DNA of 64,000 bases from an uncultured Veillonellaceae bacterium (GTDB lineage Bacteria > Bacillota > Negativicutes > Veillonellales > Veillonellaceae), in assembly GCA_945867815.1 (NCBI GenBank), contig CAMBIX010000005.1:1-64000 (forward strand), read 5' to 3'. A model generated the notes under the pieces. It made no database searches. It saw only the letters and a program-made list of their open reading frames with translations, and had not been told where the DNA came from. The first letter of the stretch is position 1; the number at the start of each line of letters is the position of its first letter. This document shows positions 3 to 38,405 of the stretch, one piece after another. A program made the position numbers and the translations under genes.

Positions 3-911
3 ATTGGTAATAGTAAGTATTTAATCATTGGCTACTATCCAACTAAAGAAGATGCTCTATCTGCACTAGTCGAATATAACAACGCCAAGCCTACCATTAG
101 CTCTATTACCCTTGGTCACGTATATAATGCATGGTTTCCTCATCACTCCTCTCTCGTAGGCAAATCAGCTATACAGTCTTATCAAAATGCCTATCGTCAT
201 ATAATCAGGCTTATATCAATGCCAATCGCTAATATTACTTATAAGCAATTACAAAACATTCTTGATACTATGCAACAACAAGGGTTATCGTACTCTTCAC
301 GCAAGAAAGTTAAGTCTTTGCTAAGCATGTTATTTAAATTCGCTATGATTAATGATTGGATTGAAAAGGATTACACCCCTTATCTACAACTCGGTAAGGA
401 TGAACACCCTTACCCTCATAAAGCATTTACTCGTCAGCAAATAAATAGAGTATGGGTGTCCAATCTTAATACAGACGGAACACTCATACTCTTATACACA
501 GGTTTGAGATGTGGTGAATTATTAGCACTCACTCGTAAAGATATTAATCTCAAATCTAAATATTTAATTGTTCGCAACTCTAAAACAGAAGCAGGGAGAA
601 ATAGAATTATTCCTATCCACAAACGAATATACCCAATAATTGAACGACTATACCACGCAACTAATAACCGCCTAATACCTCTAACTTATGCACAATTTAG
701 TGCCATATTTAAGCATTTAATGACATCTATTAACGCCAAGCACTCTACCCATGATTGCCGTCATACAGTCGCATCTCTACTCGATAGATATGGCGCTAAC
801 CCTACCGCCACACGATCAATACTAGGGCATAAAAACGGCGATGTTACAATTCGTGTATACACGCATAAAACTATATCTGAACTAAGAAAAGCAATTAACT
901 TACTCCCATAA
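3..911 (+). CDS. Tyrosine recombinase, 5' end outside window (candidate tail-fibre shufflon recombinase)
   Basis: The reading frame is open from the first bases, so the N-terminus is missing. The C-terminal catalytic domain is complete: the first catalytic Arg in YTGLRCGELLAL, the HxxR box in HDCRHTVASLL, the following His in ILGHKN, and the nucleophile Tyr in RVYTHK near the end. An N-terminal SAM-like core-binding domain precedes it. The enzyme is expected to cut and rejoin DNA at short paired sites. The prophage already has its own integrase at 37,320-38,405, and this gene lies against an array of alternative tail-fibre ends, so I infer that it shuffles those cassettes. The alternative is an integrase of a neighbouring element. 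The two recombinases share a similar C-terminal ending (VYTHKT..L..A.N.LP). Confidence 0.85.
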   Translation: MGNSKYLIIGYYPTKEDALSALVEYNNAKPTISSITLGHVYNAWFPHHSSLVGKSAIQSYQNAYRHIIRLISMPIANITYKQLQNILDTMQQQGLSYSSRKKVKSLLSMLFKFAMINDWIEKDYTPYLQLGKDEHPYPHKAFTRQQINRVWVSNLNTDGTLILLYTGLRCGELLALTRKDINLKSKYLIVRNSKTEAGRNRIIPIHKRIYPIIERLYHATNNRLIPLTYAQFSAIFKHLMTSINAKHSTHDCRHTVASLLDRYGANPTATRSILGHKNGDVTIRVYTHKTISELRKAINLLP

Positions 912-1048: not shown

Positions 1049-1058
1049 CCAGTGGGGA
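1049..1058 (+). repeat. Candidate crossover site 5 (CCAGTGGGGA, plus orientation)
   Basis: This is the head of cassette E. The 13 bases TATCCAGTGGGGA are identical to the site inside the expressed fibre gene (2,245-2,257, minus strand), but lie in opposite orientation. It is the natural partner for a whole-array inversion. Confidence 0.6.
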
Positions 1059-1298
1059 AACCGCAGTGTTATAACTGGAAAAGATAATATTGAACAGTTT
1101 ATAATTCCAACCAATTCATTGACTATTTTAGCAACTATTAAATGTCCATCTGAGAATCCAGGTAGTATTAACTTTCCACAGTTATATACATATGAAATCG
1201 ACAAAACATCATTTAAACTAGTTCCAGATGTTATGTCAGAAATCGATTTTAATAAGCAATTTGATTGTTGGTGGTTAGCTATAGGAAACTCCAACTGA
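1049..1298 (+). other. Silent tail-fibre C-terminal cassette E, inverted orientation
   Basis: An open frame starts at the crossover site (I-Q-W-G-N-R-S) and ends CWWLAIGNSN followed by TGA. The pattern QWG at the start, a central FP-type segment and a terminal W-x-AIG matches the gp53-like C-terminal domain of phage tail fibres. There is no ribosome binding site or proper N-terminus, so it is silent here. It is the only cassette on the plus strand. Inversion of 1,049-2,254 would join it in frame to the constant part of the tail-fibre gene, because both sites read ATC CAG TGG GGA. Confidence 0.75.
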
Positions 1299-1305
1299 CC
1301 AGTGG
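1299..1305 (+). repeat. Candidate crossover core 6 (CCAGTGG) between two cassette ends
   Basis: The 7-bp core sits exactly between the TGA stop of plus-strand cassette E (1,296-1,298) and the TAA stop of minus-strand cassette D (1,306-1,308). It encodes nothing, so selection on the Q-W-G amino acids cannot explain it. It lacks the GGA right arm of the other sites. Confidence 0.5.
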
Positions 1306-1606
1306 TTAAGATATGCCTATTGCAAGCCAATGAATCCATCTACTTATTCCTATTCGGTTAGATACAGTTTGAATGGTAAATGCATTACCTTGATAAGAAT
1401 CCGTTTCTCTATTTACAGAAACAGTTGCAATATAATCATCATATTGAATACCGCCCCACTGCGCACCTACCGTTTGTGCTATTGGACATAAATGCGATTT
1501 AAATTTTGTTTGGAAATTCACTAAATGCAATTGCGTATACATCACTTCACCTCCATGGACATTAGCATTATAGTTGCCTAATTTTGCTTCAAATAGTCCC
1601 CACTGG
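1306..1606 (-). other. Silent tail-fibre C-terminal cassette D
   Basis: Read on the minus strand from the crossover site, it begins N-Q-W-G-L-F-E and ends HWLAIGIS followed by TAA. It is the longest cassette (about 97 residues) and has a second internal QWGG. It follows the gp53-like pattern of tail-fibre tips but is divergent from the other cassettes. No start codon or ribosome binding site is positioned to express it on its own. Confidence 0.72.
1597..1606 (-). repeat. Candidate crossover site 4 (CCAGTGGGGA, minus orientation)
   Basis: This is the head of cassette D. It shares TAACCAGTGGGGA with sites 2 and 3. The stop codon of cassette C lies 9 bases upstream instead of abutting the core. 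Confidence 0.55.
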
Positions 1607-1615
1607 TTATAAAAT

Positions 1616-1817
1616 TTACCAACACAGTGCAATCCAACGAATATTTGTAGTATCAGAACAAATATAATTAAATCCACTAGTATTATGGTCAGAAACATTG
1701 ATTGATGTGATTTTTCCTAATGCATCGACTGTAGAGGCCACGCCTAAAGAGCCATGGGCAGTATTCGTTAAATAGGTAACAGTGCCTTGTTTAACATTAG
1801 CAACATATCCCCACTGG
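1616..1817 (-). other. Silent tail-fibre C-terminal cassette C
   Basis: The minus-strand frame starts N-Q-W-G-Y-V-A-N at the crossover site and ends IRWIALCW followed by TAA at 1,616-1,618. It is a short tail-fibre tip domain of the same QWG...W-x-A type. An ATG at 1,834 would give a free-standing reading frame, but it lies inside cassette B and has no good Shine-Dalgarno sequence, so I treat this as silent donor sequence. Confidence 0.7.
1808..1817 (-). repeat. Candidate crossover site 3 (CCAGTGGGGA, minus orientation)
   Basis: This is the head of cassette C. The TAA stop of cassette B (1,818-1,820) abuts the core directly. Seventeen bases (AAGTAACCAGTGGGGAT) are shared with site 2. Confidence 0.6.
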
Positions 1818-2040
1818 TTACTTCCCAATAGCAATGTATCTGAACCATATATTTGTTATGCCTGATATGCGCCTGCCGGCTATCACAAAAGATGCATTCG
1901 AATACTCATGAATCCCAAATACAATAGGGTCATTTTCTATGTTGGTATCAATTGCAATAACTGCAAAAGGCGACACCGAAAATGCAGTAGGAAAGTTTAC
2001 CTTATACTTGGAAGATACATTATATACAAATCCCCACTGG
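1818..2040 (-). other. Silent tail-fibre C-terminal cassette B
   Basis: The minus-strand frame starts N-Q-W-G-F-V-Y-N at the crossover site, contains VNFPTAFSVSPFAVIAID, and ends FRYIAIGK followed by TAA at 1,818-1,820. This is the most textbook gp53-like tip of the set (QWG, FP.aF, terminal IAIG). It has no start codon in frame. Recombination between sites 1 and 2, which are in direct orientation, would delete cassette A and express B in frame. Confidence 0.75.
2031..2040 (-). repeat. Candidate crossover site 2 (CCAGTGGGGA, minus orientation)
   Basis: This is the head of cassette B. The TAA stop of the expressed fibre gene (2,041-2,043) abuts it directly, so the end of one cassette and the start of the next are fused at the site. 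Confidence 0.6.
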
Positions 2041-2904
2041 TTACTTACCTACGGCGAACCACCAAAATACAACAGTATCATTCCCCTTATTTTCACGTCG
2101 GATTGTAAATTTGGATTTACTTATTGCATCAAATCCAAGATTGTAATTCTTGCCACCAGTATCTGTTGTTTGCGCACTGAGACATCGCTCCATAAAATCT
2201 ATATTAAATGTGTATGTCCATGAATCAACATTGATAGTAATCAATCCCCACTGGATAGTGAAGCCGCCCAAAAAGCCCATGCGCACGAAGCCATTAGTAT
2301 CTAGCTTAATCTGTGTATCTAATATTTCAGTTAGAGCATCTTTTACAACACCAATCACGGCTTCCTTAAATTTAGAAAAACTTTTATTAATCCACTTATT
2401 AAGGAGTGGTGTATGTGCATTTTCATTATTATCATGTTCATTTAAGTCTTTAAAAATTAGATATGTACTACCGGATTTAACAATTGTTACGTTTTCCGCA
2501 TCACCGATATTAATATCAGCTTCTATAGTTTGAGCATCGATCGGCGTGGACTTATCAGGAATATAGTCTACATAGTTACCACCATTAGTATAAGCAAATA
2601 AGACTTCTTCGCCGCCATCGATTTTGGCAAAAATGCCTACTTCACGAGCGTAAAACCCATTTTCTAATTCTTTATTATTGATTACAAAATCAAGTTGAAA
2701 TTGCCCATTTCCGATGTTACTAGCGTTATTGAAAAGGCATTCCATTTTAGTGCTAACTATGTCAGTTAAAGTGTCAATATTTCCGCTAAAAGAGCCGTCC
2801 CCCAATACAGCTTTTGTATAGGTGACGGCTTTATTTTGAACATTGGCCATTGATACTAATTCACGACCTTTGTTTGTGGTATGTAGTTTTGGATATTTAG
2901 CCAT
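2041..2904 (-). CDS. Phage tail fibre (tail-collar N-terminus, gp53-like switchable C-terminus)
   Basis: This 287-residue protein is the last gene of the tail operon. Residues 1-160 match the phage tail-collar/DUF3751 type (MAKYPKLHTTNKGRELVSMANVQNK opening, then AREVGIFAK), which anchors the fibre to the baseplate. A linker leads to GGFTIQWG, and the last 70 or so residues (ending FWWFAVGK) form the receptor-contact tip. The boundary between constant and variable parts is the crossover site at 2,245-2,254. The start follows a Shine-Dalgarno AGGAGG. The tip is probably exchangeable for cassettes B-E. Confidence 0.85.
   Translation of the reverse strand: MAKYPKLHTTNKGRELVSMANVQNKAVTYTKAVLGDGSFSGNIDTLTDIVSTKMECLFNNASNIGNGQFQLDFVINNKELENGFYAREVGIFAKIDGGEEVLFAYTNGGNYVDYIPDKSTPIDAQTIEADINIGDAENVTIVKSGSTYLIFKDLNEHDNNENAHTPLLNKWINKSFSKFKEAVIGVVKDALTEILDTQIKLDTNGFVRMGFLGGFTIQWGLITINVDSWTYTFNIDFMERCLSAQTTDTGGKNYNLGFDAISKSKFTIRRENKGNDTVVFWWFAVGK
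2245..2254 (-). repeat. Candidate crossover site 1 inside the tail-fibre gene
   Basis: CCAGTGGGGA on the minus strand encodes part of T-I-Q-W-G and marks the constant/variable boundary. It is in direct orientation to sites 2-4 and inverted relative to site 5. Confidence 0.6.
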
Positions 2905-2913
2905 ATTTTCCTC

Positions 2914-3540
2914 CTAAATTTTAAATTTGACATTTTTGATTGAAACGGTACCACCTATTATTGGCTCAGCTTTTAGTGGCTCAATGCTAAAGCCCATATC
3001 GGCTTCTATGTGGGTTACTTTTTTGAAATTAATAATTCCACCGATATATAAATCTTCAGTTACCTTCTTGACATTTTTGAAAAGAAGTTTTAAATTCTTA
3101 GGAACGATAATTTCTGCAAAATCATAAATTTCATTAATTTTGTAAGTAGTAGTAGTAGTTTCAAACCATAACTCATATTTATCATTGATGAGTTCTAGTT
3201 TTACTCCACCTTCCCCATACATAGCATCAAGCATATTTTGAAAGCTTTCCAATGTATATGGTCTAAGCCCCATTAATTCCCGCAATATTCGGTTTCTTCG
3301 AGTCTCGAAAGAGCCATTCGAAGATATATCAAGCATACTCTCCCACTGGGATAAGCCATATTCTGTGGCATATTTAATGAATTGATTTGAAAAGATATCA
3401 AGCATAACATCCCATAGTAGATTAAGTTCTACATTATGAATTCGCATGATTTCTTGAATATCAAGGCTATCTCTTGATACAGGGGTTAAGAGTTCAGATG
3501 CATCGATATCACGACCAAATGTTACTTTAATCTCGTTCAT
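2914..3540 (-). CDS. Baseplate/tail protein, XkdU-like (DUF2313, YmfQ family)
   Basis: This 208-residue protein stands between baseplate J and the tail fibre, the position of PBSX xkdU and functionally of P2 gpI. The N-terminal half is helical (LLWDVMLDIFSNQFIKYATEYGLSQWESMLDI, then SFETRRNRILRELMG), typical of DUF2313. The C-terminal half is beta-rich. It is expected to join the baseplate wedge to the fibre. Its QWES segment includes a CAGTGGG-like DNA match that is not part of the cassette array. Confidence 0.7.
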   Translation of the reverse strand: MNEIKVTFGRDIDASELLTPVSRDSLDIQEIMRIHNVELNLLWDVMLDIFSNQFIKYATEYGLSQWESMLDISSNGSFETRRNRILRELMGLRPYTLESFQNMLDAMYGEGGVKLELINDKYELWFETTTTTYKINEIYDFAEIIVPKNLKLLFKNVKKVTEDLYIGGIINFKKVTHIEADMGFSIEPLKAEPIIGGTVSIKNVKFKI

Positions 3541-3541
3541 C

Positions 3542-4618
3542 CTATACCTCCTGTTTTAGAGTTATATCACCAAGCACCGGAATAGCATCCGTTTCAAGGT
3601 CTATTTTTGTAGCGCCACCTGTGAAGGTAATATCAACATCTTTAACACCTTTGACATCAAGAATTTTAGATAAAATAAAAGCACTCCGAACGGTAATATA
3701 CTGCTTATCCGTTTGAGTGCTCCACTCTATTCGCTTGTCAGTTAAATATTCATTGACCTTTTCCTTAATGGACGTCATAAGTCCATTTAAAGTATATCCA
3801 CTATCAATAGTAGTGGTCCCTGTAATATTAATTGGCGTTTGAGTAGCCCCTACTACCGTTACAATATGACCAATTGGAGCCACCCCATAGCCTTTGCCAT
3901 CTTGAGTAGGATCTAACTCTTGTTGTACTTCATCAATCATTTCACTGTCAGGACTATTATATTGGGTATCGATGATAACGCATTTTACAGTACCGCCTCC
4001 ATTCCAACACCGATATGTTTTAACGCCACCAACGCCGTGAATTTTACGAACTTTCTCATCATAATCATCACCATTACCACCATAAGCTTTAGATTTTAAA
4101 GCCTTGATATACCGTTCTCGGAATACTTCCGTATCTTCTTCATCTTCGCCAGGGGTAATGAGTTTAGTAATTTTAGCCACTTCTAAACCGCCAATTTGAG
4201 TAATAGGTGTAATGTCTCCTATACAAGAATTACCACCTATGCCCGGTGTTTCACATTGTAATTTATACGTATGTTGCTTATCGTCAATAAGTTCAGTGAC
4301 AACAAAATTATACTTATCTGAGTTAAATCGTGTACCAATGTCAATTGATTTGTTAAATTGACCTTCTACTTCAGCAGGTGTTGCTTGTTCCGGATAAATA
4401 TTATATTCGGCGGCCCTCAGCTCTAACCCCCACCGACTAGCGGTAGATGCAAAAGTTTCTTTTAAAATAACTTCCGCCATGATATAGGCCTCTGCTAATT
4501 CAAAAGAAATAGGGGCGGTAGCATCAAATATAATACTGCCTTCTCGCTTATCAAACTGAGCCTTTACCCTATTGAGTATTCTCTTTTGAATACGTTCATA
4601 TGTCATATTTTCATACAA
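3542..4618 (-). CDS. Baseplate J-like protein (XkdT/gpJ)
   Basis: This 358-residue wedge protein is of the baseplate J family. The N-terminus has the family hallmark YERIQKRILNRVKAQFDKREGSIIFDATAPISFELAEAY. It also has NPEQATPAEVEGQF-like and GEDEEDTEVFRERYIKALKSKAYGGNGDDY segments, the latter the usual D-T-E-x-x-R-x-R-Y box. It overlaps the upstream XkdS-like gene by 8 bases and is followed closely by the XkdU-like gene, consistent with translational coupling. Confidence 0.88.
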   Translation of the reverse strand: MYENMTYERIQKRILNRVKAQFDKREGSIIFDATAPISFELAEAYIMAEVILKETFASTASRWGLELRAAEYNIYPEQATPAEVEGQFNKSIDIGTRFNSDKYNFVVTELIDDKQHTYKLQCETPGIGGNSCIGDITPITQIGGLEVAKITKLITPGEDEEDTEVFRERYIKALKSKAYGGNGDDYDEKVRKIHGVGGVKTYRCWNGGGTVKCVIIDTQYNSPDSEMIDEVQQELDPTQDGKGYGVAPIGHIVTVVGATQTPINITGTTTIDSGYTLNGLMTSIKEKVNEYLTDKRIEWSTQTDKQYITVRSAFILSKILDVKGVKDVDITFTGGATKIDLETDAIPVLGDITLKQEV

Positions 4619-37319: not shown

Positions 37320-38405
37320 TTGAAACGAGCTAATGGAACGGGTTCCGTTTATAAAAAATCAGATAAAAAACGGCGCAAGCCGTACTTCGCTATGGTGACC
37401 GTAGGATTTAACCCCGAAACAGGGCGCCAAATACGTAAGTCGTTAGGCAGCTTTGAAAAAGCCGCCGATGCGTGGAGGGCCATCGAGCAATATAACGCAG
37501 GGCCACAGCTCTATTTGGCCAAGGATATAACATTCGGTAGAATGTGGGATCTTATGATTGAACAAAAGAAAAACCTCGGTGTCTCCGGGGCAGCGAATTA
37601 CAACATGACGAAGAGCCGATGCCTACATATTTGGGACACCCCTATTCAAGACTTACGTCTAGTACACTTACAGGATATCGTCGATAAGAGCGGACTATCT
37701 CCGGCTAGCAAGCGCCAAATTAAGGTAACACTCAATGCAGTATTCAGCCTCGCCTACTCGAATGATTTTATTCAAAAGAATTATGCCGAACTAATTCAGC
37801 TACCGGCCTTAGGACAATCCGATTTGCACAAGCCATTTACTACCGCGGAAATGCAAAGACTATGGCAACACTCCGATGATGAAGTCGTGCAAATGTTACT
37901 GACCTATTGCTACACCGGAGCCCGCCCAGTGGAATTATACGAGATGCGCGTCGAGAATGTACATCTAAAAGAGCGCTATATGGTTGGCGGGGTTAAGACC
38001 GAGGCCGGCAAGGACCGAAAAATTCCTATCGCGGATTGTATATACCCTTTCATAAAGAGGTGGTACGAGGCCAATGCCTTTAAAGGCGGAGCCCTTTTCC
38101 CAATAAAGAATAGCTCGACTATGCGCCTAAAGTTAAAGCGCGTAATCGAGGAATACGGAATTGGGAAGCACCGACCTCATGACGGGCGGCACACATTCAT
38201 TACTATGGCCAGTAACTATAAAATAGACGAGGTCACTGTAAAAAGGATCGTCGGTCATGCTAGAGGTAGAAACGTAACCCAAGCTGTCTACACACACAAA
38301 ACACAAGAGCAACTTTTGCAAGCGGTAAACGCGCTCCCATGGGGGCGAAATATGACGATGTCGCCTGGTGAAAAAGTGGGTGCTACCGCCACCCTCGAAG
38401 CCTGA
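37320..38405 (+). CDS. Prophage integrase (tyrosine recombinase)
   Basis: This 361-residue protein starts at TTG after AGGAGGTG. It has an N-terminal AP2-like arm-binding part (RANGTGSVYKKSDKKRRKPYFAMVTVGFNPETGRQIRKSLGSFEKAADAW), a core-binding domain, and a catalytic domain with CYTGARPVELYEMR (Arg), HDGRHTFITMAS (H-x-x-R), IVGHARG and AVYTHKT (Tyr). It sits at the right prophage end beside direct repeats that look like its arm sites. It catalyses integration and, with a partner, excision. Confidence 0.92.
   Translation: MKRANGTGSVYKKSDKKRRKPYFAMVTVGFNPETGRQIRKSLGSFEKAADAWRAIEQYNAGPQLYLAKDITFGRMWDLMIEQKKNLGVSGAANYNMTKSRCLHIWDTPIQDLRLVHLQDIVDKSGLSPASKRQIKVTLNAVFSLAYSNDFIQKNYAELIQLPALGQSDLHKPFTTAEMQRLWQHSDDEVVQMLLTYCYTGARPVELYEMRVENVHLKERYMVGGVKTEAGKDRKIPIADCIYPFIKRWYEANAFKGGALFPIKNSSTMRLKLKRVIEEYGIGKHRPHDGRHTFITMASNYKIDEVTVKRIVGHARGRNVTQAVYTHKTQEQLLQAVNALPWGRNMTMSPGEKVGATATLEA

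Follow-up and report, generated by a model that had tools for sequence, protein, structure and literature searches.

Shufflons in which a tyrosine recombinase exchanges the ends of phage fibres have previously been described for two actinobacterial groups (PMC6109161, PMC8778435). The Rin shufflon is known from the dnaJ2 prophages of Bifidobacterium breve and Bifidobacterium longum, where it uses 11-bp rix sites and where sequencing reads have given evidence for inversions in both the prophage and the virions (PMC6109161). In Eggerthella lenta, clade 1 prophages carry a Rin shufflon with an 8-bp repeat (PMC8778435).

Here we consider a locus at the left end of the window, i.e., the whole 64-kb stretch of DNA that was analysed. 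The window is the first part of a 172-kb contig (C5) from a genome of 1.97 Mb in 17 contigs; the source genome is assigned to the Veillonellaceae, and Veillonella species are its family-mates. With a probability of roughly 0.93, the locus is the tail-fibre shufflon of a prophage, in which the recombinase encoded at 3-911 would recombine inverted pairs of CCAGTGGGGA. Shufflons of this kind are already known; what is new is a widespread branch in the Negativicutes, together with its host range, its site, and the size of the family. No shufflon paper naming Veillonella or its relatives was found in the open-access literature; subscription papers could exist.

Layout of the locus and its crossover sites

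Read from the contig edge, the features are:

3-911 (+): tyrosine recombinase, PF00589 (E 2.9e-18), 5' end cut by the contig edge
1046-1058 (+): crossover site 5, TATCCAGTGGGGA, in the opposite orientation to the other four
1049-1298 (+): tip E, silent, 82 aa; AF2 pLDDT 81; top Foldseek matches (E-values >0.01) R1 pyocin fibre, phage tailspikes, and AP22 gp53
1306-1606 (-): tip D, silent, 99 aa, tail-to-tail with E; weak similarity to phrog_28473, a tail-fibre family
1597-1606 (-): crossover site 4, exact copy of CCAGTGGGGA
1616-1817 (-): tip C, silent, 66 aa; AF2 pLDDT 91; top Foldseek match (E-values >0.01) R2 pyocin fibre, probability 1.00
1808-1817 (-): crossover site 3, exact copy of CCAGTGGGGA
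1818-2040 (-): tip B, silent, 73 aa; PF21882 (Gp53-like_C), E 5.4e-9
2031-2040 (-): crossover site 2, exact copy of CCAGTGGGGA
2041-2254 (-): tip A, expressed, 70 aa, forming the in-frame end of the fibre gene; PF21882, E 7.4e-9, at fibre residues 213-286
2245-2257 (-): crossover site 1, TATCCAGTGGGGA, located in the fibre gene as part of T-I-Q-W-G
2041-2904 (-): tail-fibre gene, consisting of a constant N-terminal part (2255-2904) and tip A; phrog_7037 tail fiber, E 1.1e-34
2914-4618 (-): baseplate genes (Mu Gp48-like, baseplate J) upstream of the fibre gene
37320-38405 (+): prophage integrase, adjoining host genes and lying outside the shufflon-recombinase clade

On recheck, the coordinates that the initial annotation had given for the fibre gene and the cassettes were exact to the base; the recombinase, which adjoins cassette E, had been missed. 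The fibre gene has a Shine-Dalgarno sequence, AGGAGG, at 2910-2915, 5 nt ahead of its ATG, and the baseplate of the prophage is of the Mu type (contractile).

Exact copies of CCAGTGGGGA begin at 1049(+), 1597(-), 1808(-), 2031(-), and 2245(-), and the window holds no sixth. Identity among the sites spans 10-13 bp and no more, with sites 5 and 1 forming a 13-bp perfect inverted repeat. As had been claimed, the identical 10-mer opens all five tips in one codon phase, C-CAG-TGG-GGA, which is read as QWG at every site. When the 1.9-kb region was simulated with a first-order Markov model, any 10-mer reached at least five copies in 2 of 2000 simulations, a test that did not require the copies to share a codon phase or position. 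Genome-wide, there are eight exact copies: the five in the window and single copies in a second prophage fibre, in a CRISPR spacer, and in a gene that we read from its translation as histidine-kinase-like. The core is nearly confined to the shufflon system within its own genome.

This layout suggests how the system may work. The constant part of the fibre always ends at site 1, where Q-W-G is encoded in frame; consequently, any inversion of site 1 with an opposing site would add a new tip without a frameshift. Each inversion would place another receptor-binding tip of 66-99 aa behind the constant part. When inversions alone are enumerated from the order found in the window, 48 arrangements can be reached, and each of A-E can become the expressed tip. 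By analogy with the known Rin, Min, and Rci systems, and given the architecture, the recombinase at 3-911 would be the catalyst of inversion and the choice of tip would set the host range by switching receptors. The prophage can probably swap its host-recognition tip, and we infer that the window copy still inverts.

The recombinase belongs to the shufflon system. Its reading frame is open for 302 aa from the contig edge; the N-terminus is absent, and the nearest full-length homologue is longer by about 25 aa. The tyrosine-recombinase residues R169, K194, H250, R253, H276, and Y286 are invariant in the alignment of homologues. In a tree of 59 tips, 49 of them with sites, the shufflon recombinases form a single clade (support 0.998) that excludes the integrase at 37320-38405. 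V. parvula-type recombinases (281-283 aa) are without about 40 N-terminal residues; homologues of 324-336 aa have extra residues, with no Pfam arm-domain match, and the window copy is truncated. A role for 3-911 as the integrase of the prophage was considered and rejected, the integrase being the gene beside the host genes.

Sequence and predicted fold of the tip cassettes

Each of the five tips ends in a stop codon, and the fibre gene is joined to tip A only. Their interiors, described at the outset as divergent, share a pairwise identity of only 12-29%. The accompanying statement that none of B-E has a usable start was nearly right, except that three of these cassettes are preceded by in-frame starts: C by TTG 1834, D by ATG 1698, and E by TTG 966. 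Inspection by eye, for D only, revealed no AGGAGG upstream of the ATG at 1698. Cassette D also contains an internal QWGG at about 1461(-), where CAGTGGGGC replaces the core; this may be the remnant of a site or the result of a fusion of tips.

The Pfam gathering threshold for PF21882 is passed by A and B, with C, D, and E below it. A cassette profile built from 172 cassettes of other loci gives A and B about 30 bits; without the QWG, the scores are 15.6 bits for D, 10.8 bits for E, and 11.2 bits for C. The number of shuffles scoring as high, out of 1000, was 1 for C and 0 for both D and E; these matches are weak. Of 57 cassettes, 29 match PF21882 at E 0.01. The AlphaFold models of tips E and C are all-beta. 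For tip E, the top Foldseek matches also include R2 pyocin fibre ends and snail H-type lectins, again with E-values >0.01, and a second look with VIA-align gave Z scores up to 6.2, which is moderate. Taken together, the PF21882 matches of A and B and the resemblance of the C and E models to pyocin/gp53 tips are in keeping with the earlier suggestion of gp53-like tips: the tips would be gp53-like or compatible with the gp53/pyocin-fibre tip fold.

Related loci and the window's own genome

Homologues of the recombinase were drawn from genomes of the same family, from named genomes, and from IMG/VR, yielding 51 loci that have a related recombinase and at least two sites of the pattern [AC]CA[AG][GT]GGGGA. 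Adjacency to the recombinase is built into this selection. Within 3.5 kb downstream of the recombinase genes there are 219 sites across the 51 loci; the upstream controls contain 1. Among the named hosts are Veillonella parvula SKV38, V. seminalis, V. ratti, and V. montpellierensis, and further Megasphaera, Acidaminococcus, Allisonella, and Gallibacterium. The cassettes have a median length of 73 aa. The loci obey an orientation rule: the recombinase-proximal site is directed toward the fibre, and the fibre site back toward the recombinase. A long open reading frame encloses a site in 39 loci, and this is always the one most distant from the recombinase. TAT precedes the core at 38 of these 39 sites; at 103 of 180 silent sites, the preceding triplet is TAA, TAG, or TGA.

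One 10-mer is common to all sites of a locus in 49 of the 51 loci, a within-locus identity that rests on three free positions, as the pattern fixes 7 of the 10; across loci there are five main 10-mers. Changes at two of the three variable positions (0 and 3 of the core) leave the amino acids of the expressed frame unaltered, and the first of these two positions falls outside the Q-W/G-G codons of the silent tips. Consequently, the simplest reading of these sequences would be that the constraint on the core acts at the DNA level. It could be argued instead that the 10-mer is merely a conserved coding motif, the Q-W-G of gp53-like tips, and that the tips arose by ordinary duplication, since QWG or QGG is indeed encoded at the start of Gp53-like_C domains. 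However, silent sites are conserved too, as is the base that precedes their frame, and sites are identical within a locus but different between loci. Furthermore, the orientation of cassettes is swapped between members of three pairs of loci (L110/L111, L104/L106, and L152/L153), which contradicts this explanation and leaves it hardly credible.

The initial annotation had proposed comparing the same locus in related genomes. The order does vary, and near-identical prophages differ by inversions at the core. L110 and L111 show 100% identity in their flanks, over 281 and 3818 bp; between two sites, a 437-bp segment with 99.5% identity is inverted, so that a different tip is expressed. Judging from the junctions, the exchange took place within CCAAGGGGGA and no more than a few A next to it. 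A single genome carries the prophages L104 and L106; their flanks are 100% and 99.97% identical, and cassettes are inverted at ACAGTGGGGA in one relative to the other. Other pairs in differing inversion states at the core are L152/L153, L064/L100, L076/L158, and L051/L052. For seven clusters of cassettes, an expressed member in one locus has a silent counterpart in another. For orthologous cassettes, dN/dS is 0.03-0.27 in 10 of 11 pairs and 0.56 in one, and by this measure the cassettes, including silent-silent pairs, are under purifying selection. The idea that fibre tips are swapped at short sites by a shufflon is thus supported by the inversions in comparative loci, by a dedicated recombinase, and by tips that are gp53-like or compatible with the gp53/pyocin-fibre fold. 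A system in which whole tips are exchanged at a fixed core does not look like a diversity-generating retroelement.

Inversion might also be carried out by another recombinase acting in trans, with 3-911 having a different role. A report on bifidophages describes a second inversion locus that lacks a recombinase of its own (PMC6109161). Yet a recombinase lies beside the sites in 51 of 51 loci, which is itself a selection criterion, and the site-bearing recombinases fall in one clade, so action in trans is very unlikely.

Several related loci have features of their own. The arrays of L117, L122, L107, and L124 are bigger than the one in the window: they comprise 7-11 sites, and cassettes in them lie back to back (divergent). 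Three Gallibacterium loci (L059, L061, L082; Pasteurellaceae) have recombinases of the same clade and CCAAGGGGGA sites; these hosts are far from the Negativicutes, a distance that points to movement of the module or phage between phyla. The pattern recognised no sites for the clade members L058, L063, and L075. In V. seminalis (L044/L058), a close relative of the recombinase is accompanied by tips reading SQGVN or similar, and L058 contains the repeat CACCTTGGCTA three times, possibly a variant or diverged core.

The window's own genome contains a second prophage fibre (L003, C9:80652-81320) with 61% protein identity, whose contig ends at the last base of CCAGTGGGGA; the cassettes of this fibre are absent from the assembly. 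IMGVR_UViG_3300010270_000012 likewise ends at the core, and a V. montpellierensis contig begins at it. An assembly would not be expected to break at a 10-bp repeat as such, but it would where several continuations compete. The break in C9 is as expected if the site had rearranged in culture, although this is indirect evidence. It bears on the possibility that the locus was once a shufflon and is now inactive, its silent tips being relics and its recombinase broken. The 5' end of the recombinase gene does lie beyond the contig, and the window locus is known in a single arrangement. However, the 302 aa are open with all catalytic residues present, the five 10-bp sites are identical, the five tips are open, and the contig with the sister prophage of this genome is cut at the core. 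An inactive locus is, accordingly, unlikely, and a working shufflon is preferred.

Relatives of the window array were sought in other ways as well. A scan of genome contigs with the constant part of the fibre found none. Scans of viral contigs with cassettes D and E also found none, and therefore no second copy of the window array. A distant DNA search of plasmids returned nothing.

Contig C8 of the same genome carries a CRISPR array of 17 spacers beside cas genes, which from gene order we read as a probable type I-E locus. The spacer nearest cas2 (G000:C8:90876-90908; L176:1501-1533), CCAGTGGGGACAGGCTAACGACATTTCCAAAGG, begins with an exact CCAGTGGGGA and is open as QWGQANDISKG in the tip frame, as if it came from a shufflon tip. 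Its source was not found in viral contigs, in family genomes, or in the rest of its own genome. A link between CRISPR immunity and the shufflon can be put forward as a hypothesis; if spacers against the core are real, shuffling might also bear on escape from CRISPR.

Implications and comparison with known systems

The recombinases of the Negativicutes and Gallibacterium loci belong to one clade, which comes with five main variants of the core. It offers many natural pairs of enzyme and site, with which site specificity and the control of inversion versus deletion are testable. The shufflon also predicts that the host range of these prophages is a property of the population, hidden by short-read assemblies or broken at the core. 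The broadest version of the idea joins a large cross-phylum family of fibre shufflons, one recombinase clade, a core that is at the same time a crossover site and a piece of coding sequence, and spacers that host CRISPR systems acquire against that core; as a whole, it is unlikely.

Among known systems, the shufflon of R64 resembles the locus in having a tyrosine recombinase beside an array of opposed sites and in swapping the C-terminal ends of an adhesin, but this adhesin is the PilV pilus adhesin and the system is plasmid-borne. The sfx sites of R64 are longer, with about 19 bp conserved, versus about 10-13 bp for the window site, and Rci is only 22% identical to the window recombinase, over the generic tyrosine-recombinase core. 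Thus, the label Rci-type, used initially for this locus, is a loose one. Mu Gin, P1 Cin, and p15B Min also switch the ends of phage tail fibres by inversion, but they are serine recombinases, whereas the window enzyme is a PF00589 tyrosine recombinase.

Of the systems described so far, the phage Rin shufflon comes closest; it is likened here by its plan and not by the sequence of its recombinase. The window locus shares with it a constant N-terminus of the receptor-binding protein followed by several startless C-terminal cassettes, some of them reversed; a short asymmetric repeat at each cassette and one inside the fibre gene; and a tyrosine recombinase at the far end of the array, separate from the integrase. 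The inversion states with breakpoints at the repeat that characterise Rin are seen here in relatives of the window locus. The two differ in the phyla of their hosts and in the core, which here has the pattern given above and is read as Q-W/G-G. In addition, the fibre here is of the baseplate type with gp53-like tips, whereas Rin tips are TP901-1-like or annotated as H-type lectins, and some enzymes of the present family are longer at the N-terminus.
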